From Owenia fusiformis (lineage: Eukaryota; Annelida; Polychaeta; Sabellida; Oweniidae), in contig CAIIXF020000004.1 in NCBI GenBank assembly GCA_903813345.2, positions 25,917,985-25,981,984 on the forward strand: a DNA stretch of 64,000 nt. The letters run 5' to 3'. The position numbers and the translations under genes were made by a program. Below, in pieces: positions 27,957 to 51,915 of the stretch. The notes under the pieces are model-generated. The model was not told the origin of the DNA, did not search any database, and saw only the letters and a program-made list of their open reading frames with translations. How positions within the stretch are numbered: the stretch's first letter is position 1; each line of letters opens with the position of its first letter.

Positions 27957-28241
27957 GACCCAAACATGTAACTTCAATCGTTGGGTCAGCCGACCATGAA
28001 TTGACTGTATCTACAGGGCTCATTGCAATACTCTCGACGCTTGAGTAAACTGTGGTATCCCCAACATTGTCACCAATAAACCACTTTTTGGAGTTTGCAA
28101 CATAATACATGTATATGTTGCCAGTGTCTTTTTTATAACTCGGTCTCTCATCATTTAGAGCTGGTGGTGGTGGGTCTCTTGACCAAGTCCCTGCGTAAAA
28201 TGCATCAGTTGATGTGACTTGTAGTGACTCGCATTCGGTAC
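27957..28241 (-). CDS. Host gene exon: extracellular repeat module 5
   Basis: The acceptor TTTTCTAG precedes 28241 and the donor GTAAGT follows 27957. The length is 285 nt, phase 1 at both ends. It encodes one repeat module: Cys near the start, DAFYAGTW in place of the usual GxY, NDERPSY, YMYY, then KKWFIGDNVGD and a closing EVTC. It is the most diverged of the five modules. If the donor is used, a further exon must exist at lower coordinates. If not, the frame runs 22 codons into a stop at 27892. No signal peptide or membrane segment is encoded here. Confidence 0.75.
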
Positions 28242-28479
28242 CTAGAAAAGAGAATGATGCCTGTTGAATGTACACTCTACTATACCTTGCATTTGGTGTT
28301 CATGAGCAACCCATTTGACTTATTAGTAATTATTATATATTTGTTTTTATTTGTCTGTTCCTTATTAATGGTTTATCGGTTGAAAGTTAGATGTTAATAA
28401 GGTACTTTCAAAAATATACCAAACAATACAATCGGACAAACAAAGTATCTTATGCATTTCTAGGTGTTAGGTATAGTAG

Positions 28480-28845
28480 TGTGATGTACGTAACATTGAA
28501 TAAAAACTATACGAACTATTATTGTTAAAAAAATTAGTCAATGGTGGATTAATAATACTGACTATTGTTGTTCAAACACTTGCCATGACTGACGAAATTA
28601 TTAAACGAACCATTGATGTTAAAACACAAAACATGGCTAACGGATTACTTAAACTAAATATTTTTGTTAAACACTTGCCATGGCACACGGAATAAAAAGA
28701 AACTATTTTTGTTAAAATACTTGCCATGAATGACGGAACACTAAAACAAATTATTTTTGTACATGTTGAAACGTTTGCAATGATGACGGAATATTAATAC
28801 GAACAAATATTATTGCTGTAAAAATATTAGCTATTGCTAATGCCT
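28480..28845 (+). repeat. Degenerate tandem repeat, period about 60-65 bp
   Basis: The units share GACGGAATATTAAAACGAAC, TATTTTTGTTAAAACACTTG and CCATG. About six units are seen, with a further partial unit at 29288-29330 (ACACTTGCCATAGCTAATGA). The block 28850-29287 therefore looks like an insertion into the array. Confidence 0.65.
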
Positions 28846-28874
28846 TGGTGGTCACATATGCTCCGATCCATCGA

Positions 28875-28925
28875 CCGGCGCCCGGCCGATTGAGTGTTTT
28901 GTTCAATATTGTATTCAATTTGCGT
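28875..28925. repeat. Fragment shared with the large element interior
   Basis: CGGCGCCCGGCCGATTGAGT followed by a TGTTCA and GTATTCAATTT context matches 2633-2682 in copy 1 and the corresponding place in copy 2 (about 58395-58445). Confidence 0.65.
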
Positions 28926-29035
28926 TTGCTTGTGCAGTGCTTAAATAAGCCTCATCATGAAAAATATAAATGGACACCACGGTATGAATTGCATGGTCGC
29001 ATGTTTTAACAAAACCGACTCATCCAAGCGCACAA

Positions 29036-29215
29036 AGACATCAAAGTTTGTTGCAATGGCACTCCTATGGATCACCAGCCAGCGATTGACCTGAACGAGT
29101 CTCCTGACAAAGTTGACGCAGCAGTGCGCTTGGATGAGCTGTTATTGTTGAAAACATGTGAGAATGTAATTTGCATCGACGAGCTTCTTGTTCTTTTTCG
29201 TGATACATGCTGGCA
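29036..29215 (+). repeat. Old dispersed repeat, first copy
   Basis: It shares with 30765-30950 the ordered strings TTGTTGAAAAC, CTTCTTGTT, TTTTTCGTGATAC (TTTTTAGTGATAC) and GTTGCAAT (ATTGCAAT). Identity is perhaps 65 percent. The overlapping ORFs on both strands (29065-29364) are not supported by conservation. Confidence 0.5.
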
Positions 29216-29580
29216 AGGCTCATTAAGTGCTGCGCGAGTGAATTACACACGCGTGCATACGAAAATGCGGTCTGAGCATTTTTGTTGATCGACACACTTG
29301 CCATAGCTAATGAAATTCTAATACGGGCTTTAACCCTAACCATCAGACTATCCTTCAGATTCATGGAATACTGACTGATTATGAGGAAGTTTTGAGTTAT
29401 TCGTATCCTATATTGTTATACAAAGAATTCCACGTGTTGCTATGCTATAAATCAAATATTATTTATTATTCCATGATGGTGAAATTCCCTGCAATCTGAT
29501 TGGTCCATGTGACTTAAATATATCCTGTATTTACACGCACTTTCCACTTAGCATTGAATACAGAGTAAAAATGACGTCAG

Positions 29581-29609
29581 CGTTGGGATACGGTCCAGTA
29601 TCCCAACGC
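29581..29609. repeat. Perfect 11-bp hairpin
   Basis: CGTTGGGATAC, a 6-base loop, then GTATCCCAACG. It lies in otherwise unremarkable intron sequence. Confidence 0.85.
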
Positions 29610-30086
29610 CCCAGATTTCCATCCAGGATATGACCATTACTAAAAAATCAATGGCGATCTATTTACACCAACGCATGCTAATATTTGCATTTTGCTAGAA
29701 ATATCCGATTTGAATATCAGGAAATGATACGGTGATCACCACAATTTATTATTTTAGGATAAAAAACACTCATCTGTAATTATAAAAATATCAGTATGAA
29801 GCATGCACATTGTTTTCATGAACTAGTAAAAATCCAATATTGCAGACGAAAGTCGAAAAAACGTTTCGTTACACTGTTCCAGCTGATGAAATTGAAGAAA
29901 AATGTTGAAGAAAATCAAACGTATCATATAATACAATAAAAGCAAAACAACAAGGCCGAAAAGATTTTGAAGGAATATCGATGTAAAATATTTTTGAGGT
30001 GAGAAGGTTGATCTGTTTCTCCGGTCCCAAGCCAAGGAAATGAACTTGATTTAGGAGTTTTATCTGAGTTATCATGGAATAAAAAC

Positions 30087-30232
30087 GTTATTCAATGATT
30101 TCTTGTGAAATACAGAAAATATTCTTCCCTTGAACGTCTGTATTTCACTCTGCTAGCGCATCGTGAAATACGACCTTCTCGGGAAGATTATTTTCTGTAT
30201 TTCACTCGAATCATTGAATAACTTATAGTATT
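30087..30232. mobile_element. Palindromic MITE 3
   Basis: GTTATTCAATGATTTCTTGT and its near-complement CGAATCATTGAATAAC form the ends. GTGAAATACAGAAAAT and ATTTTCTGTATTTCAC continue the stem inward to GGGAAG-type arms. It is about 146 bp with no coding capacity. Confidence 0.8.
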
Positions 30233-30302
30233 TCATACCTACTGATGTTCTAGGTACATAACGAGCGGGAATATATACTGTATCTAGCCAAGGCCCGGGG
30301 CG

Positions 30303-30475
30303 GGATGGATACACGCTGTATCCATCCTGGTCCCGCTCCTGAAATTTTTTTCACATTTTTTTCCCTTTTGAATTTTTTTCAAAATTTTTTTTACACATTC
30401 TTTTTCCAAATTTTTTTTCACATTTTTTCAAAAAATGTTTTTCACATTTTTTTCAAATTTTGTTTTTCAAAATAT
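30303..30475. repeat. Hairpin plus T-rich simple repeat
   Basis: A 25-bp palindrome (GGATGGATACA, CGC, TGTATCCATCC) is followed by about 130 bases of repeated TTTTTTTCACA and TTTTTCAAA words on the plus strand. This low-complexity block explains the Phe-rich ORF at 30305-30547. Confidence 0.8.
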
Positions 30476-30479
30476 GAGT

Positions 30480-31845
30480 TATATGAGTTTGAAAATCTCA
30501 GAAACTTAAAAAAACACTTTATAACACCAAGAAAATGCGTATCTTAAGTATATTTTTGAATTTTGGAACTTTATAAGGTATATGACGTACCTAGAATATC
30601 AGAAGGTATATCCCTGCGGTCCCTCGGGATATACACATGTTTCCCTTGGGATAAAACCGGTATCCAAAACCTCCCAGTACATAACCCTTATTTATAAACA
30701 TTTATACACTAACTAGTTAAATATCCTGAGATTGAGGCTGCGTTTTGAACTACCCGCGAAAAACATCACAGTTTATTGCAATCGAACCCTGTGGTGCATC
30801 AGCGACAAGCCGGGTGGTTGACACACACGGTGGGTCGAAAAGATTGACACATCATACTCAGCGGGGATGAATTGTTTTTGTTGAAAACGGGTGGCCATTT
30901 TATTTGTACATCAGGTGCTTCTTGTTATTTTTAGTGATACCTAGGCGAAATCGGATAGTTCAAAAACGCGCCTTTAGCTTGTATTCGCGAATGCAACCAA
31001 TGCCCATCGGCTACCGGATTAACCTACTATTTCAAACTCGATAAAACACCTACGAGAAAAGATTTCAACAATGAAAACGATATGATAATTTTAATTCAAT
31101 AATTTAATGATTTTTTTATGAATAATTTGACTTCTAATACAAGCCACGATTCTTTATCACAACCGAACATGGTCGAAGATGTTTCAAAGAATTTGATTAA
31201 GTCTCGAGGCATCTTCAGGATATCACATATTTGGTTGCAGGGCATCGGTGCTCTTTGCCATGATATTGCCTACATGTTTAGAAGAACATGCAACTAGGCA
31301 ACGTTAGCTCTATTTTATATTTTAACTTTTATCGTTTGGAAAGCTAAATTTATAAGATCGGGTATAATATGCACACTAATAGGCATAATCAATAACAGTT
31401 ATAGTCCATATGTCATTTTCTGAACGTAAGAATTTGAAAAACACGATGGTTTATTATGAAATCAACACCAAAAGGGCTTTCTGGAGCGATTTAGTAGGGT
31501 TGCCCAAAAATTTACTTTGGGGAAAATGGAGCACGTAGGGTATCGCAGACAATTTCAAATGATTCTAACTTGAATTATGAATATTTTCTGATTATGAACA
31601 GGGATGTATCTTTTAGATCCATTCACTATCTTCAAGAAAAGTATATATAATGATAATTTAGTTAATTTAGTTAATCAGACCTAAGTGATATTGAAGGGGC
31701 AATGGACCAATCAACATACTTTTTCAAAAATGTTGACCTAATTTTAAACAAAAAAACAACCTTTTATTATAGTGTTGAATGCATAATTAGAATGTGATTT
31801 GAGAGATGTTTGATTTCCTAAAAGGAAAAGTTGATTGCTCCAGGG
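30480..31845. other. Intron sequence, little recognised
   Basis: It contains the second copy of the old dispersed repeat (30765-30950). Otherwise no gene or structured element was seen. Confidence 0.5.
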
Positions 31846-31849
31846 ACTT

Positions 31850-32215
31850 TAAAGATACGAAATTTGGATGACCAAAATGAACTGAAACCAATGGATAGCA
31901 TGAGCTTTTTCAATGGGGAAATAACATGGGGAACCGTTATCTTAAAGCAATTAAGTTTTTCATTCAAGAACTATTTGATACATCAAAATGAAGAATAGTA
32001 ATGCATTAAACATTGTAAAAATGATTGCATTTTTTGGAGAAAATGGGGTCAACATCTTAGAAAAGTGTATTGATGGGTTGATTACTGTTAAATATCTCCG
32101 AGTTTGTTTGACTTTATTATTACTGTATATAATTTTCTTTGAAATAATGAATTGACCTAAAAGATAAACCTGCCTTCATTGTCAGAAATTAGTCATAATC
32201 CAAGATATAACATTC
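31850..32215 (+). repeat. Dispersed repeat, copy 1 (partner at 39868-40262)
   Basis: The two copies share, in the same order, GACTTTAAAGATAC, AGAACTATTTGATACATCAA, AATAGTAATGCATTAAACAT, AAATATCTCCGAGTTTGTTT and ATTGTCAGAAA. Each copy has a private insertion, about 60 bp near 31895 here and about 90 bp near 40047 in the other. Confidence 0.8.
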
Positions 32216-32934
32216 TGAAATTGTTTGCAATAACCTACGTACTCCTTTATATATTTGCAAATGAAGGTGGTCATTATCGAATTAGTGATTATCTTCAATA
32301 TATTTTGAAAACTAAGCACAGAAACATCACAATATTGGTGTATAAACCAGGTTTTCAGGGTCAGGGAATAAAATGAATTCATAAAAATCAAGATTAGAAC
32401 AATAATTTTATTGTTAATGTAAAATGAGGACAGCCATTATCGAAATAGTGATTACCTTCAATATTTTGTAGACTTAATACAATAGCATCACAATATTGGT
32501 GTCTAAACCCAGGTTTGCATGGTCGGGGAATAAGATGAAATTATTAAAATCAAGATTTCAACAATAATTTTGTTGTTTATGCAAAATGAGGGCAGCCATT
32601 TTCGAAATAATGTTTATCTCCAATATTTGTAGACTTAGTACAATAGCATCACAACATTGGTGTCTAAACCTAGGTTTTCAGGGTAAAATAATAAGATGAA
32701 TTTATAAAGAAAAAATAGTAATACAAAAATGATTGTGATTATGCAAATTAGGACAGCCATTATCAAGTCATTGATTATCTTCGATATTTGGAGACTCTTT
32801 CTGGGTCAAAGATAAGATGAAATGATAAAAAATATCAAAACAATAATGATTGTGATCATACAAATAAGGGCAGTCATTATATGAAAGTGTTGATCATCTT
32901 CAATATTTCGGAGATTAGTCAATAAAGTAACATA

Positions 32935-34013
32935 CGAGGGGTGATCCAAAAGTCTTGGACGCCCTGCTCTATTTTTGTTGGTTTTTGATAAAATTACTTT
33001 AAACTTTCCAATAATAAAGACAAACAACCTAACTACTATGTGTATTAATTTCATGGAGAAATGATATATTTTGTATAGTTTTCTAGATAGTTTTTGATAC
33101 AGGGACCCTGCCACCCGGAACGGTATTCGCACATGGCAACTTTCAGCCTTAAATGTTACCACCATTTCACTTGTTTCGCAAGTCTTGACCACTATATTTC
33201 TTTGAATTTTGAATTTTAAACCATGTTAGTTTACTTCCTTTGTTACTAGGCAACCAATTAATTGTGTTTTAATTATAATGTCACATATGACAATGGCCGC
33301 ACATGTCAAATTCTAAGAAAATGCCATCAGACAAGCAACCCTCATTCTCGTATCATTTTTGCTGCAAGATGGCTGCTGAAAGAAATCAAAGTGGAACAAC
33401 GAATACTACAAGATATTGTCACTATTATTGACCTTGAGCAGCTACCATATGCACGATACAGTCTATCTATGGCTCCATGTAATTTTTTTCCTTTTCTCCA
33501 AGTTGAAAGGATGGTTGAAAGAAAATGTTTTTTACTCATCGAATGAGGTTTAGAGTAGCACTCCAGCAGCATTTGTATCACAGAAGCAATGACGGTTTCA
33601 TAAATGTCTTCCATTCATTGGTAAAGTGGTATGAAAAATGTGTTCAAATTCGTGGAAAATATGTTGAAAAGTATGTCTTAATATGTGAAGATGATGATTT
33701 CAGATGACACTCAGATTGAAAATCGAAAATTCTCTCATATCGTGGCTGAAGTTAGGTTGTGCACCTGCACCTAAAGTATTTGCCATAGTATAACAGTTGT
33801 GACGTGATTTGCTATATTCATATACCGTTCCGGGTGGCAGTGACCCGGTATTAAAAGATATGTAGAAAAGTAGCTAAAATATATTATTTTCTGTTGAAAC
33901 TTATACATAAAATTGTTAAGATGTTGATCTTTATTATCTGAAAGTTTCATGTAGTTATTTTTAAAAATAGCAAAGTTAGAGCGGGGCGTCCAAGACTTTT
34001 GGATCACCCCTCG
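32935..34013 (+). mobile_element. Mariner-type element, copy 1
   Basis: It is flanked by TA on both sides and has ends CGAGGGGTGATCCAAAAGTC with TTGGACGCCC, inverted at the right. The inverted similarity extends over 200 bp and includes CGTTCCGGGTGGCAG on both sides. It is 1079 bp, shorter than a full mariner. A near copy in opposite orientation is at 40602-41694. Confidence 0.85.
33330..33707 (+). pseudogene. Mariner transposase remnant (C-terminal part)
   Basis: Plus-strand frames, broken by a frameshift near 33525, give SLSMAPCNFFPFLQVERMVE (the region of the third catalytic Asp, normally APxDFFLFP; here Asn replaces Asp), then FRVALQQHLYHRSNDGFINV, FHSLVKWYEKCVQIRGKYVE. This is the usual C-terminal order of mariner transposases. 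The N-terminal helix-turn-helix and the first two catalytic Asp regions are lost by deletion, so it is inactive. Confidence 0.8.
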
Positions 34014-35106
34014 TAATGCCGGTGCCTAAACCCAAGTTTTCAGGGTCAACGAATACGATAAAATAACAAAGAGGTTAAAACAATAACGATTGTGATTATG
34101 CAAATAAGGGTGTCCATTATCGAATTATCTCCAAAATGTTGCAGACTAAAAATATAATAACATCACAATTGTTATCTCAACTAAACTCAAGTTATTAGGG
34201 TCAGAGAATAAGATAAACTTATATAAAAAGGATTTGAAGAATAATTATTTTGTTCAAGCAAATCAAAGCAGCCATCCATTTATTGATAATGTTCAATATA
34301 TAGTTCGGAGACTAAGCAGAGAAGCATCAAAGTATTGGTGCCTAAACACCGGTCTTCTAGCTCAAATAATAGAACCCAGGATTAGAACAAAAACTATTGT
34401 GGTTATGCGAATAATGCGGCCATTTTTGAAGTACCACTGTCTTCACAGTCACATCATGAGACAATAGAGAGATTTCGCACATAAGTGAAAGTACAACTTA
34501 TACGTATACGTATAGTTTAAAGGGTCATGTCGAACTATTATATTTACTAAAATCAATTTTAAATTGTACTTAATGGAACATAACTTATTCCGTTATAGAA
34601 AAGCTCCATCAACTAGAGACTATGAATGCACTGTCATCTGCACGTGTAGATTATGCACATTATAATTAAATGCTTGCTTCCGTGTCCTTGTAGTTGTAGT
34701 GCATTATAAACACGATCCTTTAAAGGGAGCCATGATTCTTTAAAGTGAGTCATTACATAAACAAATTGATTATTTCAATGTTTTTATGATCAGTATTCAA
34801 TGAACTTACAAAACGGTATATTTACGTAGATGATAACGTATACAGTTAGATCTCCGTATAAAGATTTGCCTACATGTGTGTGGAACAATTGACCGCAAGC
34901 ATTTTTTAGTAATAATTGGCTGAGTGGGAACAGTATCCAATCAAATACTTTAACCATCAATTTGAAACGCCAATCAAACCAGTAGGTTCTAGCAATTACT
35001 AGAAACGACCCATCCAGTAGCTCAACATATGACATACAGGGTGTTTCATAACGAGCATCTCCAAAAAGTCAACTTGAGAAGAGATGGGTCTATAACATAT
35101 GTACTA

Positions 35107-36673
35107 CAGGGTGGGCCAAAAAAACCACCCCCTAGCCATTACTCCTGATAAATATTTATTTTTTAACATGTACACCAACAATGATATATCATTTTAAAGA
35201 TAATTTAATTTGCAACAAAATGATATATAACAGCACCATTTTCAACAACTCCATATAGAAATATAACCAATTATGTGACATGGGGGTCAAAAAACACCTT
35301 TTCAATTTTCATTGATTTTGCGAACAAAAGCCTATTTCTACCAAATTTTACTGTTCAGTTAAAAGTTGCAACATTTTCATGAGTCTTTCATAATTGGATA
35401 TTATATATTGTTTTCATTCAGTTTTTGAACCATGCATGCTCAATAAACATGTGTATGCTTATAGAACAAATTAATTTCTTCATCAGTCTGTCCAAATATG
35501 GCTCAATAGACCCATCCCCCGGACCCATCCTCTGATCAGATTATTCGCTTAAGAAGCGGAAGCCATTGGTTGATGGCATAATTGATGGATGTATGCGGAA
35601 GTACCATTCAACTACTAGTTATTCTTTCTTTTATTTCCTCTACATCCCTGATAGGCTGGGTATCTTTAAATAACAACTGTTCTAGATGCCCCCAGGTGTG
35701 GTAATCAACATTATTGGCATCTGGACTGTCAGTAAGCCATTTGTCCGGGCTAGAGATGGTGTCATTTCGAATCTCCAAAAACTCCAGGGTAGCATTGGAC
35801 CTGTGTGATGAAGCACTTTCCTATCAGAAAATGAAATTTCTTTCACATGTTTTTTATATCCTTGATGAGTCCTTTTTAACACCTCATGTCATTAACATTC
35901 AGAGTATATTTTTGCTCCTGGTTCAACAAAAACAGGGCCTGTACGGTCTTTCCTTTTTGGGAAACTCCAAGTGGACACCACTACCCTTTCAGAAAAATGT
36001 CATCTCGATTTGAGGAGCCTTTTATCGCAAATGTACCTATTCTTGCTTACTGATATATAGAGTCTATCCTGTTGATTACATGTATAGTACTTGGGGCATT
36101 TAGAACAGTTGGTCTATGAAGATCACTAGCCTATCAGGGATGTAGACAAACTGAAAGAATGAATAATTACGAATTCGATGGTACTTCCACAGAGATCCAT
36201 CAATTATACCAATGTCTTTCGCGTCTTTAGCGAATAATCCGATCAGAGGATTGGTCCGGGGGGTGGGTCTATTGAGCCATATTTGGACAGACTTAAGAAG
36301 AAATTAATTTGTTTTATAAGCATACACATGTTTATTGAGCATGAATGGTTCAAAAACTGAATGAAAACAATATATAATATCCATTTATGAAAGACTCATG
36401 ACAATGTTTCAATTTTTAACTAAATTGAGAAATTTGGTAGAAATAGGCTATTGTTCGCAAAATCAATGAAAATTGAAAAGGTGTTTTTTGACCCCCATGT
36501 CACATAAATGGTTATATCTCGAGCCAGGGTTGTTGAAAATTGTTTTATTATATATCATTTTGTTGCAAATTAAATTATCTTTAAAATGATATATCATTGC
36601 TGGTGTACCTGTTAGAAAATAAAAATTTATCAGGAGTAATGGCTAGGGGGGTGGTTTTTTTTGGCCCACCCTG
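35107..36673. mobile_element. Mariner-like element D, palindromic
   Basis: The ends CAGGGTGGGCCAAAAAAACC and its complement lie between TA dinucleotides (35105-35106 and 36674-36675). The arms match inward for more than 500 bp on each side (CATTACTCCTGATAAAT, ATGATATATCATTTTAAAGA, GACCCATCC, CTGATCAGATTATTCGCT), leaving a central region of about 400 bp with transposase traces. The arm length is unusual for a mariner and suggests a rearranged derivative. Confidence 0.75.
35600..35882 (-). pseudogene. Tc1/mariner transposase trace in element D
   Basis: On the minus strand, with frame changes, one reads SPDANNVDYHTWGHLEQLLF (the position of the SPDLNPxDYxLWG block) followed by DTQPIRDVEEIKERI. 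The frame 35682-35882 covers part of this region. It is a short, non-functional C-terminal trace. Confidence 0.6.
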
Positions 36674-36989
36674 TATATATGAGCCTATTTTATTCTAGAC
36701 AAACACATTTGGATCAACTAAACATGCTAAAATTCAAGAAAGTACAAATGGCATCCCTTTGACCTGTATTTATTATAGTCCGAGAAGATCTTTCCTGACG
36801 AAAAGCTCACAATATGAAACACCTTGTACGTTTACCTATAAGTATAAGTATACGTTATAAGTTGTACTTTCACTAGGTGCGAAATCTCTCTAATATCTTA
36901 AAAACAGATCCTTATATATTATGTACAAAGGTTGATCACGAACATCATCAACCTTCCCTCCCACATACTTTACCTTCAGCTTTGCAACT

Positions 36990-37720
36990 ACTTATGATGA
37001 CATCTACCTAATAATTAGGACCCGGGGGTGCAGGATCAGTACCAAGTATTGAGATGTCATCCTTTATTTCCCTCCCATATGCAGCTATGTCAACAATAGG
37101 TGGGTCGATCAACTGCTTGCCACAGCATCACTTAAAAATTATTTTTGGCAACCCATTTAAATCACTATGGAAACACTGAATTAGTCAGTAATTTCAATCG
37201 TATCTTTTAATATTATCTGATTCATTGACTCTTAAAACATAGGACACAACAATTGTGATGCTATCATTCTTACTTTTTATGATATGGATGAAATTCGATA
37301 TATTAATAATGGCCGCCCTAATTTGCATATATGATTTTTATAGTTATTTTTGGCAACCCATTTAAATCACTATGGAAACACTGAATTAGTCAGTAATTTC
37401 AATTGTACTGCAAGTCTGATAAACAAAATATTTTGAATAAGTGCGATATTTTAATTATAAAATATGCTAATTTGCATATATGCACAATGTCTAATGAGTT
37501 ATTCTCGTATCTTTTAATATCATCTGATTCATTGACCCTGAAAACATGGGTTAAGAGTAAGACAGAACAATTATGATGCTATCATTCTTACTTTCAAAGA
37601 TAACGAAAAAATCTATATTTTAATTATGGCCCTTCTAATTAGCCTATATTTTTCCCCAAACTAACTTTTTTGGTAACCCAGTTAAATCACATCAGAAAAC
37701 CCTTTTCATCATCATAAATT
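36990..37720 (-). repeat. 160-bp satellite copies in inverted orientation
   Basis: Complemented, this region gives AATTAGAAGGGCCATAATTA, GATAGCATCATAATTGTTC, CCCATGTTTTCAGGGTCAAT and GAATCAGATGATATTAAAAG, the same order as the array at 32255-34440. The satellite therefore lies on both sides of element B' in opposite orientation. Confidence 0.65.
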
Positions 37721-37887
37721 AACCATAAAACATCGTGTTTTTAACAATTCATGGGTTCACAATAGAATATATAAGTCTGATAAATGGACTATTATGAGCA
37801 GTTTACGAAACGGTTTAAACGTATACAACAGTAACACACGTAACACACTTTTTTTTATCCAGAACCAGTAAGGTAAAATGATCCTAC

Positions 37888-38211
37888 GTGTTAAACAAGT
37901 AACGCCGACTCCCGTCATATCTACAAAACTCGCGCCATTAAAGCCCTCGGGTGTGATAGTAAGATCTTGTGGATATAAGACGGATTGTTTAAATTTAACT
38001 CCAATCGTAAAACTTCCTAAAAAAGGACCGATGATCCATCTCCCATCTTCTAAGTAGTATAGATAATTTGAATTCCCAATGGACGCATAAACTGGACGGT
38101 TGTTTAAATCGTCGTTTTCCTTTTTGTACAGACCAAGTCTTCCACTTTGTGCAACATCACCCGTATCTCCATTTATTGATATGAATATTTCATCGCAGGG
38201 TGGTTGCTCAT
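37888..38211 (-). CDS. Host gene exon: extracellular repeat module 4
   Basis: The acceptor ATATTTCAG precedes 38211 and the donor GTAGGA (weak) follows 37888. It is 324 nt, phase 1 at both ends. It encodes a well-kept module: EQPPCDEIFISINGDTGDV, GRLGLYKKEND, LNNRPVYASIGNSNYLYYLE, DGRWIIGPFLG, and a final VGVTC. The frame is open throughout. The phase-1 symmetry means the exon can be gained or lost without shifting the frame. It joins to the three-module exon at 44594-45484 upstream and to 27957-28241 downstream. Confidence 0.85.
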
Positions 38212-38548
38212 CTGAAATATGTTCACATAGGCAAATATTATTTTGATATTGTTAAATACCATGTGTAATGACTTAATATTGTTAGATATCATGTACGATA
38301 TTCAAAAATATGTATAACATATATTTCATGATAATTTTTAGTAAGTAAAGGTAAGTATTAAATCGAGTATTTTCATTGCAAAACTAGTAAATGCAAACCA
38401 TTACATATGACATCTAACAATTCGAGAATCGATGAAAATATTTACATTAATGAAATTAATGTTGTTAATTTGATGTAATTATTCGGTTAGTTTTACATTT
38501 GATGGTTGTAATCACGTATGATCTGACGTTTATTTTTTATGGTATCAA

Positions 38549-38800
38549 GACGTTTCACCCCCTGGACATTTCACCCCTAGACTGTTCACCCCTTAGACGT
38601 TTCACCCCCTGGACATTTCACCCCCTAGACACTTCACCCCCTAGACGTTTCACCCCCGGACATTTCACCCCCTGGACATTTCACCCCCTAGACATTTCAC
38701 CCCTAGACTTTTCATCCCTTAGACGTTTCACCCCTTAGACATTTCACCCCCTAGACATTTCATCCCCTAGATATTTCACCCCCTAGACATTTCACCCCCA
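38549..38800 (+). repeat. 16-bp minisatellite, forward orientation
   Basis: About 16 units of GACATTTCACCCCCTA with variants (GACGTTTCACCCC, GACTGTTCACCCC). The opposite-strand form occurs at 41934-42323. The ORF at 38499-38738 is a translation of this repeat. Confidence 0.9.
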
Positions 38801-40262: not shown

Positions 40263-40339
40263 ATATGATGTATAACAATTGTTTATCAACTTTGAAAATC
40301 TAGTTTTTTTGAAAATGTGACTTCTAGTTCGGGTTGATT

Positions 40340-40599: not shown

Positions 40600-40601
40600 T
40601 A

Positions 40602-41694
40602 CGAGGGGTGATCCAAAAGTCTTGGACGCCCCGCTCTAACTTTGCTATTTTCTAATATAATTGCACGATCATTGCACGATAATAAAGATCAACATCTTAA
40701 CAACTTTGTGTATAAGTTTCAACAGAAAATAATATATTTTAGCTTTTTGGTAAAGATTTTTTAATACTGGGTCCCTGCCACTCGGAACGGTATTTAAATA
40801 TAGCAAATCACGTCACAACTGTTATAAAATGGCAAATACCTTAGGTGCGGGTGTACAATCTAACACCAGTCATTATATGAGAGAATTTTCGATTTTCAAT
40901 CTGAGTGTCAACTGCCATCATCATCTTCACATATTAGACCTACTTTTCAACATTTTTTTCCACGAATTTGAACCCATCTTTCATACCGCTTTACCAATGA
41001 ATGGAAGACATTTATGAAACCGCCATTCCTTATGTGATACAAATGCTGCTGGAGTGCCACTCTAAACCTCATCCAACGAGTAAAAAATATTTTCTTTCAA
41101 CCCTTCTTTCAACTTTGAGAAAAGGAAGAAAATCACACGGAGCCATATCTAGACTGTATTGTACATATGGTAGCTGCTAAAGGTCAATAATAGTGAAAAT
41201 ATCTTGTAGTATTCTTTGTTCCACTTTGATTTCTTTCATGATCTGCATTTCAGCAGCCATTTTGGAGCAAAAATGATACCAGAATGAGGGTTGCTTGTCT
41301 GATGTCACTTTCTTAGAACTTGACATATATGATCATTGTCATATGTAACATTATAATGAAAACACAATTAATTGGTTGCCTAATAAGAAAGGAAGTAAAC
41401 TAACATGGTTTAACATTCACAATTCAAAGAAAGACAGTGGTCAAGACTTGCGAAACAAGTCAAATGTCACCAACATTTAAGGCTGAACGTTGTCATGTGT
41501 GAATACCGTTCCGGGTGGCAGGGTCCCCATCTTAAAAACTGTCTAGAAAACTACATAAAAGATATCATTTCTCCATGAAATTAATACACAAAGTAGTTAG
41601 GTTGTTGGTCTTTATAATTGGAAAGTTTAAAGTGATTTTATCAAAAACCAACAAAATAAGAGCAGGGCGTCCAAGACTTTTGGATCACCCCTCG
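40602..41694 (-). mobile_element. Mariner-type element, copy 2
   Basis: TA flanks (40600-40601 and 41695-41696) and ends ACGAGGGGTGATCCAAAAGT identical to copy 1. The interior is the reverse complement of 33000-33950 at roughly 90 percent identity. The transposase remnant therefore lies on the minus strand, about 41300 down to 40930, with more stops than copy 1. Confidence 0.85.
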
Positions 41695-41933
41695 TACTTG
41701 TTATTTGATTATGCTATTTGGAACACTTGGTAATTAAATTGTGATTTTAATTAATCAAACCCAAGCTAAACTCTATTACATAAAATCATCTAACTTAAAT
41801 TCAATTAAGTTGCTGAGCAAAATGTGTCAATAGGAAATATGTTCTATAATATATGCCATTTACACTTAGGGTATTCAGTTCTAACAAAGAGAAATACTTG
41901 AATGAAATATGAAGGAGTAAAAAATTGAGGCTA

Positions 41934-42323
41934 AAATGTCTAGGGGGTGAAACGTCTAGGGGGTGAAATGTCTAAGGGGTGAAACGTCTAAGGGATGAAA
42001 TGTCTAGGGGGTGAAATGTCTAAGGGGTGAAACGTCTAGGGGTGAAATGTCTAGGGGGTGAAGTGACCAGGGGGTGAAATGTCTAAGGGATGAAATGTCT
42101 AGGGGTGAAATGTCCAGGGGAAGAAATGTCCAGAGGGTGAAGTGTCTAAGGGGTGAAATGTCCAGGGGGTGAAACGTCTAAGGGGTTAACAGTCTAGGGG
42201 TGAAATGTCAAGGGGGAGAAATGTCCAGGGGGTGAAGTGTCTAAGGGGTGAAATGTCCAGGGGGTGAAACGTCTAAGGGGTTAACAGTCTAGGGGTGAAA
42301 CGTCCAGGGGGTGAAATGTCTAG
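41934..42323 (-). repeat. 16-bp minisatellite, reverse orientation
   Basis: About 24 units of TAGGGGGTGAAATGTC with variants. A block of about 93 bp containing GGGGTTAACAGTCTAGGGG is repeated, a higher-order structure not obvious in the forward array. Confidence 0.9.
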
Positions 42324-43290
42324 AAAGCACTTTTTATACATGTACAATGAAACATATAAAATGAAACATGTACAATGAGAGAACAACTGAACACCTTTCC
42401 TTTATGAAAGTCCGAAAAATTGCTGAAAATGTCTCAAATTGAACAACAACTGCATGTACACTCGTGTTTCAGATGAATGTGTAAATGATCATTTTGTTTG
42501 ATTAGAATCACACACCATAATGCAGATAAAGTTCCAGACTTAAAACATCCGTTGGGACACTTACATGTGACATTTAACAATTTGAATGCTATGATTTATA
42601 ACATGCTAAAACCACTGAATGAATAAAAACACTGATTGAATACACTTATTAGTGTTCATTGTCACAGACTTTATATAAAATTTGTGACAATGAAAACTAG
42701 TAAATGGATTTAATATTACCAGACTATGAACTTATTTAATGTATTCTGATTCAATAGTTTGAGCTAAACTCTCATTAAAATAAAAAATAGTCGACAGGCT
42801 TTTACAATAATACTGCACGACAAAACATATGTTAAAATATAGTGTAAATTGAGGTTTTTCTATATAGCTTTGAAATCTCGTTAAATTCTCGTTTTAATGA
42901 GATCTTCATTTTTGACCACTAAAGACAAACATGTACATTTTCTTCTTTTTGATGGCAAATTCGAATGATGCGTGTTATTTTAAAACAACTTTGATTTGCA
43001 CAGTTATTTACCTTTATTAAAATTTCCAGGATTTTCAAGTTTTCTGTAAGAGACCATGCTAAATTCCCATTGACACAATGTTAGAAGATATTTAAAGTAA
43101 GTTAACTTACTCTTTTAAGTATCACATTTCTTATGTTAAATCACAATCCACTTGTCAACAAGAAAGGGACATATTTGAAAAATCGAGAAATAAAGTGATT
43201 TTCTGTCAGTGCTCTGTATTCTTGTAATGGTATTCTAGCCTTACCACATTCATACTCCCATCTATTAATCCTTCTCTACATATCTATATC
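42324..43290. other. Intron sequence, nothing recognised
   Basis: AT-rich, no hairpin, no tandem repeat and no module exon on the minus strand. Confidence 0.5.
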
Positions 43291-44527
43291 ACACCGGAAT
43301 AGCCTGACTACGGTAAAGTCAGATGCCGTTGTCACAAATGGCGGACACAGGTTCGCATTCGATTTGATTTTCACGAATTATAAGTTCAATAGAGCACGTA
43401 CATGTATATTAAATTCATTTGGCACAAGAATCAATAAAAGTGTCTTGGTACTCACCGTATAGTTGATAATCTTCTTCCATCTAAATAAAACCTTCAATTT
43501 AACCGATCGAGATATGGCCTGGGACAACTGATACTGTGGGTCAAATGTGCTCTAAAATCGAGATGACAACGGTATTATTCGACAACGGTATCTAGAAAGA
43601 CAACGGTAATGCAACGCTAGTAGTACATCTTACATGTATTATATGTATTACCTATTAGTTTTTAAAACCTTGGCCTTAATACAACCAGGGTTAGATAAAA
43701 CCCGTAGTTATCATCGCATGCGCTGTCTAATTTTTTCTCAGTACATTTTAAGCAAGGGGCAAACCCTCCACCCCCCGGCAAAAAATTATTTCAAAATCAT
43801 GCAGTTTTTACTATTCTTGACACTTTTTAAGTGGTTTCTTGGGCCATTTTTGTCAAAAGTTAACCCCCGGGACTGTGAATTCGTAGGATCCAAGAATTTA
43901 TCCGGATAAATTTTATCTTTTTGAATTACTGAGGTAATCATATATGTTTCAAATAATCATATATGTCTCTGCCGGGACAAAACCAAAAATAATCATAACT
44001 ATTATTTTAGACTTCATAAATCTTTTTAATTGTTTCATAGAGTCATACCATAAAAATTCAATGCTTCTAACTGTGGCTGAATGTAGAAAAAATCAAAAAT
44101 CCTGCTTTAGTTGGAATGGGTAGGGGTCCTAAGATTATTTTTTCAAATAGAAGTTGACCAAAATTGTCATTTACACTCAACTCCTCATACGTCTTGTTTC
44201 CGTTGTCATTTCTCCAATGTTCTAATGCAATATATCCCCCATATCCCGTTGTCATAAACTACCATATGCCGTTGTCTTTGGGAATTCTGATTCCGTTGTC
44301 ATAGTCGATATCGAAGACGTTATATTGTGGCGATTCACGATACCATTTGATCGAAATCGGAATTTCATATATTACATTATCACAAGAGCTTAATACATGC
44401 ACAGAATTAGCTACGATAAGATCCGAAGAAACGAGGATCAAGTGATTAAAGAGTTGAATCAACGGTTATGTCCGCCATTTGTGACAACGGCATCTGACTT
44501 TACCGTAGTCAGGCTATTCCGGGGTGT
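43291..44527. mobile_element. TIR element with subterminal CCGTTGTC repeats
   Basis: The terminal repeats of about 55 bp begin ACACCGGAATAGCCTGAC and pass through GGTAAAGTCAGATGCCGTTG to ACAAATGGCGGACA. The motif CCGTTGTC or its complement appears about nine times: near 43327, three times as GACAACGG at 43565-43610, and several times as CCGTTGTC at 44195-44300, plus the right terminus. Such repeats commonly serve as transposase binding sites. No transposase frame is present. Confidence 0.75.
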
Positions 44528-44593
44528 ATATAGAAAATGGTCAATTGTTAACCATATATAATATAATAGTGCATGTCAGCTACATTAAATTAC

Positions 44594-45484
44594 CCGGAGC
44601 TTCTGTACATTGAATTGTCAAGTTTCGTTCTAGCCAGTTAGAATGATCAATTTCTTCCTGGGTGTCAGCTGAGCTGATCTCGTTAGGTACAAGTGCAGAT
44701 GTCGATATGCGAATTCGCCAAGTAAAAATCCTTAGATCCGGTCCAATAACCCAAAACTTCGAAGTGCTATCCACAGACACGCAGTAGAGATAGCGAAAAC
44801 GAAATTCGTGAACGTACAAAGGACAGCCCTGATATAAAGTTCCCTCGAGCGTGAAATATCCCATGTTACCACGGTCGAGGACACTACCGTCCACAAATAC
44901 TCTCTCACAAGGTTCTGGTCCAAAATAACATTCAAATTTTATATTTTCTGTTCCTACTGTCCAAGTATTCGGAATCTGAGTAATATCCATTTCTGTTGAT
45001 CCAAATGCAAAACTATATTCATTATCTGTCGTATTAATTACCCAACCAGCAGCCTCTTTATATATGGTAATTGCTGTGTTTCCTACTTTTGTATACACGC
45101 CATCGTCTCCTCTAGTATACATCCCATTTAGGCCTGCATTCTCTCCCGTGTTGCTAAGGCCACTTGCCCAAATGTTGTTGCACAATTGTGATTCCTCCAA
45201 CGTAAGACTTGGCTCCGTGACCCATTGGTCACCGTCAAAGCACATCAGGTCTCCTGTATTGGTATTTATCTGAATACCAAAGGTTTCTCCGCCGATTTCG
45301 GGTCCTACGACCCAGTTGTTATTTTTGAAATATAAGAATTCAGGCCGGGTCATATGCTTGTAGACCGGATTACCATTGTAGCGGATACTTTCCCGGATAC
45401 AATATATGCCTTCTCTAAATCTCTGATTTGAGCAGATCCCTGTTCCAGTTAGTTCAAGCTTTGGTACATCTCCAGTATCATCAC
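44594..45484 (-). CDS. Host gene exon: three extracellular repeat modules
   Basis: The acceptor CTATTTGCAG precedes 45484 and the donor GTAATT follows 44594. It is 891 nt, phase 1 at both ends. Module 1, residues 1-102, has EGIYC, YNGNPVYKH, FLYFKNNNWVVGPEIGG and ends ESQLC. Module 2, residues 103-186, has LNGMY, a changed GNTAITIYKEAAGWVI core and ends IKFEC. Module 3, residues 187-297, has NMGYF, QGCPLYVHEFRFRYLYC, KFWVIGPD and ends LTIQC. The products are probably extracellular, following CUB. The frame remains open past both splice sites, so a longer ORF (44580-45608) overstates the exon. The family is not recognised. Confidence 0.9.
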
Positions 45485-46130
45485 CTGCAAATAGACAACG
45501 TTCAATGTCAAAAGTTTGAAAAGGGTGCTTCACAAATGAAACAAATCTAATCAACTCTATCAATGATCTATGCTTAACTTTAAGAAGACAAATTATACCG
45601 GCCACCAAATATTTTCAAGATCGAAATTCAATCTTAATAAAGTCATATCATTTAATGCAAATTGGGTCAAACAAATGAGGAAACCCAAACAAATGTTGAT
45701 GACGAAGTCATTCAGCATGGCTTAAGAATCATACTTATCACAATTAAAGCGTGCACATTTTTTTCATTCTACCTAATGTATTTGGTCTATTACCAATGGT
45801 CACGGTTTTATGGCCATTATACAAAACATGCTACGTCCAGCGTCGTGTCTTGATTCACGAGAATAGACTTTTTGTGTTATGACTCTCATTTTCCTTCTTA
45901 TTTCTTGTTTCAATAGTTCAAAGTTTGGTAGCTAGTGATAGATATTAGCCACACATATAAACATCTGGTTTGATTTATGTCTGGTGAATATGGCACGTTT
46001 CAGGCATTTGGAGCATGTTTATATAAATGGTCATAATATTGTGACTATTGGAGTGACCATAAGTGATGCTTATGATGTAGGGTGCTTCCCCTGGCGTTAA
46101 CATCAGCTGCCTCTAGACAGATCGACTGGG
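45485..46130. other. Intron sequence, nothing recognised
   Basis: The intron between the three-module exon and the CUB exon 46477-46619. The first half shows nothing; the second half holds the SINEs. Confidence 0.5.
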
Positions 46131-46295
46131 TTGTCGAGTTGGCCGAGAGGGCTTGAGCGCAAGGCGATTGGGGCCGTAACCACGAGGTTGCGAGTTCGAG
46201 ACGCGTGTGCTCCTTGCGTTTATTCATTTCTCCCTCATCACATATCATAATGACAATAATGTTCGAGTTGTACTTCAAGCTGTGGTTCATTTATT
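46130..46295 (+). repeat. tRNA-derived SINE, first copy
   Basis: It begins near GTCGAGTTGGCCGAGAGGGC (A-box TTGGCCGAGAGG) and has GGTTGCGAGTTCGAGAC (B-box) about 45 bases later. These are class II tRNA (Leu or Ser) features. A non-tRNA tail with TGCTCCTTGCGTTTATTCAT follows. Confidence 0.7.
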
Positions 46296-46328
46296 AATTG
46301 TGAATGGTTTACCTGCAATTAGTTTGTA

Positions 46329-46459
46329 TTTTAGGGATGTCGTGTTGGCCGAGAGGGCTTGAGCGCCTGCACGTTCGAGCTAGGCGAATGGGCGCCATAA
46401 CCACGAGGTTGCGAGTTCGAAACACGTGTGCTCCTTGTGTTTATTCATTTATGATTATA
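46329..46459 (+). repeat. tRNA-derived SINE, second copy, flanked by a 33-bp direct repeat
   Basis: It has the same A-box and B-box strings as the first copy and a short tail. The 33 bases before it (46296-46328) and after it (46460-46492) differ at one position. The repeated segment covers the splice donor of the CUB exon ending at 46477, so a second donor-like site lies at about 46312. Confidence 0.7.
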
Positions 46460-46476
46460 AATTGTGAATGGTTTAC

Positions 46477-46619
46477 CTGCAATTAATTTGTATCCTATCT
46501 TGAAACCTTCCCCGGTAGATGGAGTTTGACCTACAAATCTAGCATTAGCCCGAAATAGGACCATCAACTCTCCGTTTAACGAATCAATCACAGTAGTTGG
46601 TGTATCCGTTCCACAAAAC
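46477..46619 (-). CDS. Host gene exon: CUB domain, third part
   Basis: The acceptor ATAATTTTAG precedes 46619 and the donor GTAAAC follows 46477. It is 143 nt, phase 2 in and phase 1 out. It encodes FCGTDTPTTVIDSLNGELMV, then FRANARFVGQ and GFKIGYKL, the standard last third of a CUB domain: fourth Cys in FCG, then the hydrophobic strands before GFxxxY. A copy of its 3' border is duplicated beside a SINE at 46296-46328. Confidence 0.92.
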
Positions 46620-46788
46620 CTAAAATTATATTGGAAAACTTGGCTAGTGATAAGAAATGGAGTATGCCTTTTAGATCTGAGACTCGATTGAAATGGCCAC
46701 TCTGTGTTGAGACAAGATGCAGAGAAGACAAAATCAAATTAACACACTAATAAGTAAGCTAACGTATCGCAGTATCAAAATGACATAC

Positions 46789-46919
46789 CATGGTCCAACG
46801 TATCCAAGACTTGTAGCGTAACGTATTTCCACCCGGTCATAGTTGCATGTGTTGTCTGATGAGGAGTCAATACCAAATGTATCAACAAAACGTATCTGAA
46901 CTTGATTTCCAGGTGGAGC
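46789..46919 (-). CDS. Host gene exon: CUB domain, middle part
   Basis: The acceptor TTTTTTAAG precedes 46919 and the donor GTATGT follows 46789. It is 131 nt, phase 0 in and phase 2 out. It encodes APPGNQVQIRFVDTFGIDSS, then NTCNYDRVEIR, the CUB segment with the third Cys and the CxYDxV motif found in calcium-binding CUB domains. The phase-2 junction with the next exon makes a Trp codon before FCG. Confidence 0.92.
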
Positions 46920-48222
46920 CTTAAAAAATTTATAAAACCTTTTTATTTTCATTTTTTGGGTTGATGCCAGAGGGGAAGTAAGGGGCGATCCCTTCACTCT
47001 TCAACATCTTACTATATCGATGTGCTGTTTCATGGTGCCTGAGCACTTTTCAAGTGTCTTGAGACAATATCATAAATTCAATGAATTAGGTGTCTGGACA
47101 TGCAATATCATATTTTGCGATTCGTGCTATCACAGGTTGTGGCTGGTCGATGCAATTGATTTGACAACATTCTCATTATACTTTTCACGGTTTGATCCAT
47201 TTGGTTTTGGTGATGAAAAATGCATTTTTGAAACCTCTTCAGCATTATGTGTAAGTCATTCATGGAAAATTAACAACAATGAGAATGGCCAATTGGTATT
47301 CACAATATAAGTATATGATGTAGGTTTTTGTTTTGTTAGGATGTCAGTATTGTACTAAGCTCACAAACAAGGATGTCAACCATAGCCAATCAGAGAAGAG
47401 TACCCCTTCTAAGTGATGAGAATAAACCCTTCCTACAGCTTGGTTTAGCTTTAGATCACTATGATATCATTATTTGGCAGAAATACATCCTGCTTGGATA
47501 TAAATGATCACATGACCTTGGTTCACCATGGTATCAGGAGATGGCATGCCAAAATGTAAAATCTATCAAAAAGTAACATCAATACTATGACCGATTATAA
47601 GCTCGATTTCTATTGTTAATTGTATGACATATACGTGACTAATGTAAATGCTATCAGGGGAAATTCGACCTGCAGGCCTTACTATTTTCTGTTTTGAAAA
47701 ATTCGATATGAGATATATTTCTTAGTTTTTCAAAGAAATCTACAAATATTTCGATGCGGTTTTATCTTCACATCGTAAATTCAATCACCGCCATCACTTT
47801 TCAAACCTTGAAATATCAGAATTTCCTGTTACTTTAATCATTTCAATGTGACTGTCAATCACAATTTATTAAGCAGTAAAAAATGATATGCTACATTGGT
47901 TCCTAGTTTGATGTTGAATGTCGAGTCTTTCATCATACGAAAGTAATTTTAGGTGATCTGTTTGCCTGGGATGCAAGTAGGACCAGTGGGTCACATAAAC
48001 CTTAAACCTCTCTTATTCAAATTCACCGTTAATGTCATGTGACTTAAGCAAGTATTTGATTTTGAACTTTTTATAACTAGAATAAACTAATGAAGATGAT
48101 TACTAAAAAGTAAAACCCCTCTTAACTTATCATCGCCATACAATTTACCAGTAACTTTGATCTTAACAAGAACAGAATTCCAGAGCTCCCTAACACAACA
48201 TTATAAACATTCAATATCTTAC
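46920..48222. other. Host-gene intron, nothing recognised
   Basis: The intron inside the CUB domain. No exon, hairpin or tandem repeat seen. Confidence 0.55.
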
Positions 48223-48335
48223 TTTTAGTAGCCAAGTGCATGCACTGTCTTTACTATAATCAGTTCCAGTTCCATAATCAGGATTTGTTAGAAAACCTTC
48301 GGTTGCAGTCACGGTGATTTCACCTCCACATGTTG
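48223..48335 (-). CDS. Host gene exon: CUB domain, first part
   Basis: The acceptor GCTAATAG precedes 48335 and the donor GTAAGA follows 48223. It is 113 nt, phase 1 in and phase 0 out. It encodes TCGGEITVTATEGFLTNPDY, then ACTWLLK, with the first and second CUB cysteines and the GxxxxPxY turn. With the two following exons it completes a four-cysteine CUB domain of about 125 residues. A short TA microsatellite lies upstream near 48390. Confidence 0.92.
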
Positions 48336-48468
48336 CTATTAGCAAATAATGTTCGTTACTTTCCCTGTATTTACATTCATTATCATGGTATATATATATA
48401 TATATAATAAAATTTAAATAAAAACACAAGATGACTTCATTTCGTTGCAACTAGTTTCTTCAAATCTG

Positions 48469-49108
48469 AGTCAAATCAAACATACACTTTCCAATAACAG
48501 CAACAATAGCAATAAAGGAAATGTAATAGGATTACATTCTTCAAATGTAGGACCTAATTATTTGTTCTGACCCCCTTTAGGGTCAAATCCAACATACACT
48601 TTCCAATAACAGTAACAAAAGCAATAAAGGAAATGTAATAGGATTACATTCTTCAAATGTAGGACCTAATTATTTGTTCTGACCCCCTTTAGGGTCAAAT
48701 CCAACATACACTTTTCAATAACAGTAACAAAAGCAATAAAGGAAATGTAATAGGATTACATTCTTCAAATGTAGGAACTAATTATTTGTTCTGGCCCCCT
48801 TTAGGGTCAAATCCAACATACACTTTTCAATAACAGTAACAAAAGCAATAAAGGAAATGTAATAGGATTACATTCTTCAAATGTAGGACCTAATTATTTG
48901 TTCTGACCCCCTTTAGGGTCAAATCCAACATACACTTTTCAATAACAGTAACAAAAGCAATAAAGGAAATGTAATAGGATTACATTCTTCAAATGTAGGA
49001 CCTAATTATTTGTTCTGACCCCCTTTAGGGTCAAATCCAACATACACTTTTCAATAACAGTAACAAAAGCAATAAAGGAAATGTAATAGGATTACATTAT
49101 TCAAATGA
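48469..49108 (+). repeat. 112-bp intronic satellite, 5.7 copies
   Basis: Units start at 48469, 48581, 48693, 48805, 48917 and 49029, exactly 112 bases apart, each with GTCAAATCCAACATACACTT, AGCAATAAAGGAAATGTAAT and TATTTGTTCTGACCCCC. The copies are nearly identical, with the first most diverged, which indicates recent amplification. Confidence 0.95.
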
Positions 49109-49701
49109 CAAATAAAATGTTACTTTGAGATAAAAATCCTGCCTTTACCAATCATTAGATAATCTATCATGTCAGCAGATTCTTTTAATATGTTCCCCTC
49201 TCTTGTCAATAGAAAAATTGTCTTTTGATGGTCGTTGATGTTTTTGAAATTACTAGGTTTTAAAGTTTTTCAATATGAGATTTTCTGATATACATATCAT
49301 GTGGTATACTGTACAAGTGGTATCTCATCTGAGTAGTTCTTTGTCGAATGGTCAAATTTTATCATTTTCCTAATTTGTTAATATTTCCGACATATACTTT
49401 TCCGAACCTGGCAAAAATTAGACGCCCAGTAAATGAACGAACATAAATCAACACAAGACATCGAGAATATAGCACTTTGAAAAAGTGCGATATCTAAATA
49501 CATGCTAAATATATGCCGAAACTGTGCATTATAGAAAAATATCAAATTATTAAAATAAATAATTTACATTGAACGGATACATAGTATAACATGACAAATT
49601 ATCAAATCAATCATTTTATGACCAATCGAAATCGATATACAGATGACGGATAATTGTAATGAAGTAAATGCACCAACCACCAATCCCTGGTGAGACATCA
49701 C

Positions 49702-49818
49702 CACAGGTATTTCCGGTCCATCCATCCGGGCATCTACAGACCGCGCAATCATTAGGGTCTCTGTAACCACCGTTTAAGCAATCTTTCCAACGTAACGACG
49801 AAAACCCAGGACAGTTAG
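49702..49818 (-). CDS. Host gene exon: EGF-like module
   Basis: The acceptor TTGTTTAG precedes 49818 and the donor GTGATG (weak) follows 49702. It is 117 nt, phase 1 at both ends. It encodes NCPGFSSLRWKDCLNGGYRD, PNDCAVCRCPDGWTGNTC, with six cysteines. The CxNGGYxDPxxCxxCxCPxGxxGxxC form is the type that follows the catalytic domain in astacin proteases, which agrees with the upstream exon. It joins in phase to the CUB exon. Confidence 0.88.
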
Positions 49819-51782
49819 CTAAACAAATGCACGTATATTATTCTGTTTTATTCTATATAATGTATTTACAATCAATATTCTTGTTTATAAGGTACACACG
49901 GTTCAATACAATGAATGAAACTAAAGGTAATTCACCAGACTTTCAATTCATTTTCAAGCGGTTATATTTTTTTTGAGGTAATTTATTAACGTGAAACATT
50001 CAAAAATTAGCGGTAATATATAAAAAAAACGATAAAGCGTATACGTTTTTAGATCCAAATACATGTATACATAATAGTATATCAAGACAATAAATTCAAG
50101 GGAAGTCATTTGATTTTTTCACTCTGGGAAATTCCAAAAATGACCACTGCACAATATGTTTTTTTAAAAAAAAGAACCCTCCAAAAATGAAATAATTTCT
50201 TTAATACAAATGTAATTAGCTTCATTTTTCATATGCAGAACCTAAAATCTATGTATGATAATGTAGGACCAATTTGTTACATAACATTCACTGTTATTCT
50301 TGTTATGGTCCATTAAAAATGTGCCCACTTTTAAAAGAAAAGAAAATATAAGATTTTCGTCAACAAAAAGGTTACATATCATTTGCTTAAATCTATCACA
50401 TTCGTTTAGCTTTTTGTTAAGCTGCAATGTGCATTAAGCTGCATTGATGAGGAAGTGTCCTAGCAACCTTTAAGCAATATTTAGGTATGGCTGCACCTTC
50501 CGAGTGGTATTTTGAAACTGCGTTCAAAGTAATCACACACAATGCTTTTAAGTGTCCTAATATCCATATTCTTGGAAACCTCCCTAAATACAATGTAGGT
50601 GTAAGCTAATAATTTTTCCATTCATTTCTCATTCTCTTCATTTCTCATTCTCTTCATTTCGATTCAATTCTCATTTCTTCCTCTTCAAACTCATTATCAA
50701 ATATTTGACTTTGATATCACATGTCATACCATGCTATTGACTGACCATCTGCTGTCTGTATGATTTCTAGAGAATTCACCAGAATTCACCAAATGGAATT
50801 TTGTACACCATTTGAGATGTCCTTGCTCAGAGGCAAGGGATTTCAGTCACCTGATGTTTTACTGGGTGTTTTACCATTATCTATTCTTCATTTTTTAATT
50901 AAATTATTAAATGAGACTTTAATTTGACGTCTTCTTTGGAATTTCCCTCTGAATTTCTTATAAAATCTCATTTGATTTTGTCTCAATCCTGATTTTCCGA
51001 AAATTGGACATATTCTAAGTGAGGTTGATGGGCTAGATATTTAAGAAATTATTACACTGATAGAGGGTTCTGATTTTTGGTCACCCTGTATATAGTATAT
51101 AATGATATACGATTTTCTATATGTGATATGTAATAATTGTGTTAACAATTTAAGACGATCTTATTTTTAAGATCCAAATTTATTTGTCTATTATTGCACT
51201 TTGTGTAATGTTAAAGCCCTTGTGGTACAAAAACACTACTCAACATTAACAATGCCAAATTTGTCTTGAATGCTTTGGACAGATTTGAAAAACGAAAAAG
51301 ATAAAGATTGATTTAAAGAAATCAGCAACGTTAAAGTACACCATGTAAAATGCATTTCCTATACATTTATAAAAAGTGATCTTAAAACGATCGCTTTACT
51401 TGTTTTTGATCAAATAAAAGCATAATACGCGTCAAGGAGGGTATATGTTTGTATAATAGAGGGTGGTCAAAAAACGGAAACGCTGTCACTATTTTCCTCA
51501 TATCTGTCATTTTAGGAAATTACTTCCTGATATTTGGCACATTTATACATAATTCAAATTCCCACCGGCCAATCATATTCACGACCATCATTATTGATAG
51601 TCATAATGTTACAGCACTTTAAACAACATACTCTAGTGCCAATATTGCACTTTCGGCAAACCTGCACCCATAATTACCTAAAATGACAAAGATATGGGCA
51701 AAATGCATCATGGTTTCCATTTTTGACCACTTTTTGCTAATATTGTTCATTACTAATACGCAAAATAAAATGTAAGGATTAC
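49819..51782. other. Host-gene intron, simple repeat only
   Basis: A short TTCATTTCTCATTCTC repeat lies at about 50620-50690. Otherwise no gene or element was recognised. Confidence 0.55.
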
Positions 51783-51915
51783 CACTGCAGTAATGGATGT
51801 TAAATAACTGTGCGTCTAAGAAGGACAGACCAACATCATTGCCCATGTTTCCATTGTATAAAGGATTAACGGCGTCCATTGTTGGATTGCTCGCCGCAGT
51901 TCCTATTGAAAATGC
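51783..51915 (-). CDS. Host gene exon: end of an astacin metalloprotease domain
   Basis: The acceptor TTTCTTATCAG precedes 51915 and the donor GTAATC follows 51783. It is 133 nt, phase 0 in and phase 1 out. It encodes AFSIGTAASNPTMDAV, then GNDVGLSFLDAQLFNIHYC. This matches the stretch after the Met-turn of astacins: a short AFS strand, NPT, then the GLSxxDxxxxNxxYC helix whose Cys pairs with the N-terminal part. The zinc motif HExxHxxGFxH and the Met-turn must be encoded upstream, and no such exon was seen between 51915 and 64000. The organism may use this protease in the extracellular matrix or embryonic layers, as related astacin-EGF-CUB proteins do; that is inference. Confidence 0.82.

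Follow-up and report, generated by a model that had tools for sequence, protein, structure and literature searches.

In the BMP1/tolloid proteases, the astacin catalytic domain is followed by domains in the order CUB-CUB-EGF-CUB-EGF-CUB, and in BMP1 a role as a regulatory or substrate-recognition arm is ascribed to the CUB-EGF tail. In the sea-urchin proteases SpAN/BP10, the astacin domain is followed by EGF-like sequence and two CUBs. Here we analyzed a gene of the annelid Owenia fusiformis that lies on the minus strand of a 64,000-nucleotide stretch (C4:25917985-25981984, hereafter the window), and its predicted product belongs to a multi-gene astacin family with a catalytic domain, an EGF-like domain, a CUB domain and five modules in the order A-B-C-D-E. 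Compared with the described proteases, the gene likewise places EGF-like and CUB sequence after the astacin domain, but it does not have the tolloid layout, because one EGF-like domain and a single CUB are followed by the modules. We consider it likely that this gene encodes a secreted astacin whose module array would dock the enzyme in a secreted matrix. Secretion and latency through a propeptide are described as general for astacins in section 2.1 of PMC9848320.

Eight exons (E1-E8, 51915-27957; Table 1) join through GT-AG borders into 719 stop-free codons, and the eight-exon open frame of about 710 codons proposed in an earlier note on this DNA, together with its phases, is thereby confirmed. 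Four stop-free joins are possible. The E2 donor may lie at 49681 or at 49678, the latter adding one codon, and an alternative E3/E4 border pair is open too but shifts the E4 frame, with loss of the stretch that is conserved in two other loci, L002 and L003. E1-E8 represent most of one gene and fall short of the whole, since catalytic exons lie past the window end and three paralogues continue beyond the last module. In the paralogue L002 (C4:25.74 Mb, about 220 kb away), all eight exons could be aligned. Over 695 codons, dS (synonymous divergence) was 1.09 and dN (nonsynonymous divergence) 0.23, giving a dN/dS of 0.21, and a second locus, L006 (C4:26.09 Mb), which has E6-E8, gave 0.31 over 489 codons, while dS was saturated against the C11 gene of L003. 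These low ratios indicate a real gene under purifying selection, and chance joining of exons was ruled out by the conservation of all eight exons together with the low dN/dS.

Three catalytic exons lie outside the window, namely the zinc-site exon and one more in locus L001 and another in L007. The zinc-site exon, upstream of the window, reads HEIGHSFGYYHEQ...SSVMHY, so that L001 contains both the HEXXHXXGXXHE zinc site (HEIGHSFGYYHE) and the SxMHY Met-turn with its tyrosine (SSVMHY); the motif SIMHY is named for astacins in section 2.1 of PMC9848320. When these three exons and E1 were joined by hand, with the upstream three junctions not checked base by base, the product matched PF01400 over positions 21-189 of 189 (E-value 8.1e-45). 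With its catalytic motifs intact, the enzyme is predicted to be catalytically complete. The joined E1-E5 piece matched the CUB family PF00431 at 51.1 bits (cut-off 21.4). The EGF-like stretch reached 17.5 bits with PF07974, below the Pfam cut-off of 22.1, and other astacin loci conserve it at the corresponding position. The astacin end, EGF and CUB read by the earlier note were thus recovered, the EGF staying under the Pfam cut-off. Both motifs, the near full-length Pfam match and the multidomain layout are shared with the astacins (PF01400, M12A), from which the gene differs in that its module tail equates with no accessory domain in the legend of Figure 1 of PMC9848320, as judged by names rather than sequences.

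The tail is composed of five modules of about 95 residues, three of them encoded by E6 and one each by E7 and E8. The five-copy repeat claimed previously was found, but the claimed pattern does not extend to every copy, as B departs from it in two motifs and A in its end cysteines (Table 1). In a 20-copy alignment, Gly, Tyr and Trp are invariant and the end cysteines nearly so, and the core signature can be written C..L..(S/G)G...G.Y...N.RPVY...YLYY...W.IG...W...C. A profile of these 20 copies recovered 57 copies in the loci examined, a number that includes the seeds, and none in reversed frames; a wider profile brought the number to 73 modules across the window and 26 loci. A profile containing the window modules would detect them in a circular way, and this was ruled out with an independent profile, which was built from 25 modules of seven loci without detected astacin, leaving out the window and its close paralogues. 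This profile found all five modules, with E-values of 9e-6 for A, 0.018 for B, 5e-7 for C, 8e-13 for D and 7e-13 for E, and found nothing up to an E-value of 10 in 2204 reversed frames. Among the 73 modules, both end cysteines are present in 58, neither in 11 and only one in 4 (one- or two-column tolerance; Fisher p 1e-9, uncorrected for kinship). Since one end cysteine is rarely present without the other, the module ends are probably joined by one disulfide. In module C, the extra two cysteines may provide a further disulfide that links neighbouring strands.

The module has no match at an E-value of 0.001 or below in Pfam (20 and 32 members), NCBIfam and PHROGs (32 members), nor with any PDB sequence, and in these collections the earlier note, which knew of no standard name for it, is borne out. 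No library family was matched by more than one module member; the best was Pfam Img2 (0.0028, one of 20 members), and this candidate, EAGR_box (0.011, its cut-off not reached) and Saf-Nte_pilin (0.015), each matched by one member, were rejected. Bacterial and viral scans with the D-type alignment A2, which reach only sequences keeping the chosen peptide patterns and leave phage and plasmid collections outside, returned 103 and 28 pattern matches, none of which was confirmed as a relative. Among the literature matches listed, those obtained by motif strings carried nearly all antimicrobial-peptide titles, and none of those obtained for astacin with annelid, Owenia or unknown domain describes the module in its title or abstract start. 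The module is therefore uncatalogued in the libraries searched, and the predicted protease is an astacin variant with a new tail. If the module is truly uncatalogued, more than 100 exons in this genome encode a nameless extracellular domain, and Pfam-based annotation would call these proteases plain astacin-EGF-CUB proteins. Naming the module would make its spread among animals traceable. Other marine eukaryotes have stretches that resemble 'GRPVY ... LYY ... W.IG', so we do not claim that the module is confined to this animal.

Across the genome (498 Mb, 525 contigs), seven protein searches yielded at least 101 exon blocks with at least about 123 modules in 38 clusters, located on C1, C3, C4, C7, C8, C9, C11, C12, C370 and C488. 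These numbers unite only rows with an E-value of 0.001 or below, weaker ones being dropped, with modules per block taken as length/300, and they are lower bounds because the search scores only its best candidates. When all 142 astacin places were considered, 13 of the 38 clusters were preceded, on their own strand and within 30 kb, by an astacin exon. Controls gave 2 clusters for the downstream side and 1 for the opposite strand, and 2000 random placements, a control that omits the C370 and C488 clusters and assumes a length of 60 Mb for C1, gave a mean of 0.096 (maximum 2). An earlier count using about 33 hand-picked places out of the 142 and a reach of 45 kb also gave 13 of 38. None of the 142 astacin matches lies on C8, yet six module clusters do, including an A-to-E array where no astacin was found, and at two C8 loci (L004 and L025) a threonine-rich (Thr-rich) stretch stands directly before module A. 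At L016 (C7:9.35 Mb), an Ig V-set frame (E-value 4.5e-6) lies upstream of a module run. Thr-rich, mucin-like frames also follow the fifth module in L002, L006/L010 and L023; in L002 and L006/L010 they extend as far as a stop codon, with onward splicing possible, and L003 continues after the array with EGF repeats and more modules. For the window gene, a candidate tail exon is the short Thr-rich frame L020, about 44 kb downstream of E8, whose splice sites and phase fit as judged by eye.

The mobile extracellular modules EGF, Ig, CUB and sushi follow a phase 1-1 exon rule. The new module resembles them in its phase 1 borders, paired end cysteines and varied partner domains, and differs in that it matches none of them in Pfam at an E-value of 0.001 or below. 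With splice borders picked by a simple score, 53 of 60 acceptors and 56 of the 58 donors found for module exons were in phase 1. In a tree of 73 modules and 102 columns, whose few columns limit the deeper forks, many copies group by array position and not by gene. The B-type clade (8 rows, 98/97) and the C-type clade (8 rows, 95/87) each hold genes of C4, C11, C3, C7 and C8, and both span astacin genes and genes without astacin found. For the A-type, the C4 and C11 genes come together (4 rows, 97/88) and the C7 and C8 genes form their own group; the D-type grouping is weak (83/80, 11 rows) and includes single modules of other loci. From these positions we infer that at least the B-C pair predates these genes and has been copied both together with the protease and without it, and that the array end changed. 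Border phases, tree groupings and mixed genomic partners are all in line with the exon shuffling of phase 1-1 exons that had been suggested from the window alone.

Whether the window gene is instead a decaying or chimeric copy has to be weighed against this evidence. Its large repeat-bearing introns (6.4 kb between E6 and E7, 9.6 kb between E7 and E8) would suit such a copy, as would a 7.2 kb inverted segment about 100 kb away, 98.0-99.6% identical and carrying catalytic exons and E1, and a 3' end that was not found within the window. A frame of this length without stop or frameshift, and a dN/dS of 0.07-0.33 in every exon against L002, make decay very improbable. A further possibility, on balance doubtful, is that the modules belong to a family already named elsewhere, for example in InterPro members, CDD or a structure-based classification, in which case only the combination would be new. 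The modules are diverse and hence probably old, and their PDB profile matches, all non-significant (E-values 0.09-1.5), include nanobody/Fab chains, the IsdC surface protein, levansucrases and one kinase-like protein, both of which, together with the similar stretches in other marine eukaryotes, would agree with such a family; the lack of a significant match in Pfam, NCBIfam, PHROGs and PDB sequences argues against it. We also propose, tentatively and at a little short of even chances, that the module represents an unnamed extracellular domain family of more than 120 copies, a shared docking code that would unite proteases, mucin-like proteins and Ig proteins in a single secreted matrix.

The array could also serve the protease itself as a regulatory or substrate-recognition arm rather than as a matrix anchor. 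Its position directly after CUB and the conservation of the B and C positions between genes are compatible with this role, which nevertheless appears unlikely to us, as modules, including the C8 A-to-E array, stand beside Thr-rich or Ig frames without astacin found. Modules present where no astacin was found should have a protease-free role, and it is their use beside Thr-rich sequence at such places that led us to the docking idea. According to this idea, the enzyme would be secreted and activated by removal of its propeptide, the module array and the Thr-rich tail would hold it in a secreted matrix such as mucus, tube or cuticle, and it would cut substrates there. Where these modules adjoin Thr-rich or Ig sequence and no protease was found, the genes would encode partners in that matrix, with a structural or a binding role. 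Modules common to proteases and mucin-like genes offer a testable idea of how proteases are placed in a secreted matrix. Several results weigh against this reading. For 25 of the 38 clusters, no astacin lies within 30 kb upstream, so the module cannot be regarded as specific to proteases. The grouping of A and of D copies from different chromosomes is partial or weak, and among the fifth modules those of the C4 genes form a group of their own (4 rows, 100/99), separate from those of C7, C8 and C11, which means that some lines did not retain the five-module array intact. In addition, no next exon of the gene was found within the window, where a composition scan gave no Thr-rich exon downstream of E8, and no signal peptide or propeptide could be assigned among the upstream frames listed for L001 and part of L007, for which no dedicated search was made.

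Table 1 Exons and modules of the astacin gene in the window (positions are those of the window).
Feature	Position	Strand	Phase	Description
E1	51783..51915	-	0-1	C-terminal end of the astacin catalytic domain (AFSIGT...NIHYCS)
E2	49681..49818	-	1-1	EGF-like domain (NGGYRDPNDCAVCRCPDGWTG); alternative donor 49678
E3	48223..48335	-	1-0	CUB domain, part 1; PF00431 E-value 1.9e-13 (joined piece)
E4	46789..46919	-	0-2	CUB domain, part 2
E5	46477..46619	-	2-1	CUB domain, part 3
E6	44594..45484	-	1-1	Single exon with modules A, B and C
Module A	45180..45467	-		Without its own end cysteines
Module B	44928..45182	-		Diverged, weakest member; without RPVY and IGP
Module C	44607..44909	-		Extra cysteine pair (in GCPLY and LYCV), absent in L002 and L006
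E7	37888..38211	-	1-1	Module D (38197-37895)
E8	27957..28241	-	1-1	Module E (28233-27964); donor GTAAGT

Several further observations were made at related loci. The inverted segment mentioned above, a copy of the 5' half of the gene (L008, C4:25861009-25868203, plus strand), was compared with window positions 50585-53483, L001 and L007; it is without about 18 kb present between the zinc exon and E1 of the window gene, and this stretch was accordingly either inserted after the duplication or lost from the copy. At L009 2114-2608 (C4:25819691-25819984, minus strand), a lone module-E-like exon has its frame open and shares 52% identity with E8, and no other module was found near it on the same strand. 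At C8:31406840-31530983, five module clusters form a tandem run in which no astacin was found, and two of these clusters each score 75.5 bits with the D-type query and are almost equal in score with the E-type queries, so their duplication may be recent. Runs of single-module exons occur at L016 (C7:9346500-9351000) and L015 (C9:2343500-2353000), and the tree pairs five modules from the first run with five from the second. Genome-wide, the best astacin match is an astacin-EGF combination in one open frame of 707 amino acids (C6:8720368-8721039, plus strand). Within the introns of the window gene, a tandem array with a 112-base unit (5.7 copies, 98% alike) occupies window positions 48470-49107, and arrays of a 16-base unit, AGACATTTCACCCCCT, lie in opposite orientations at 41934-42323 and 38548-38799.

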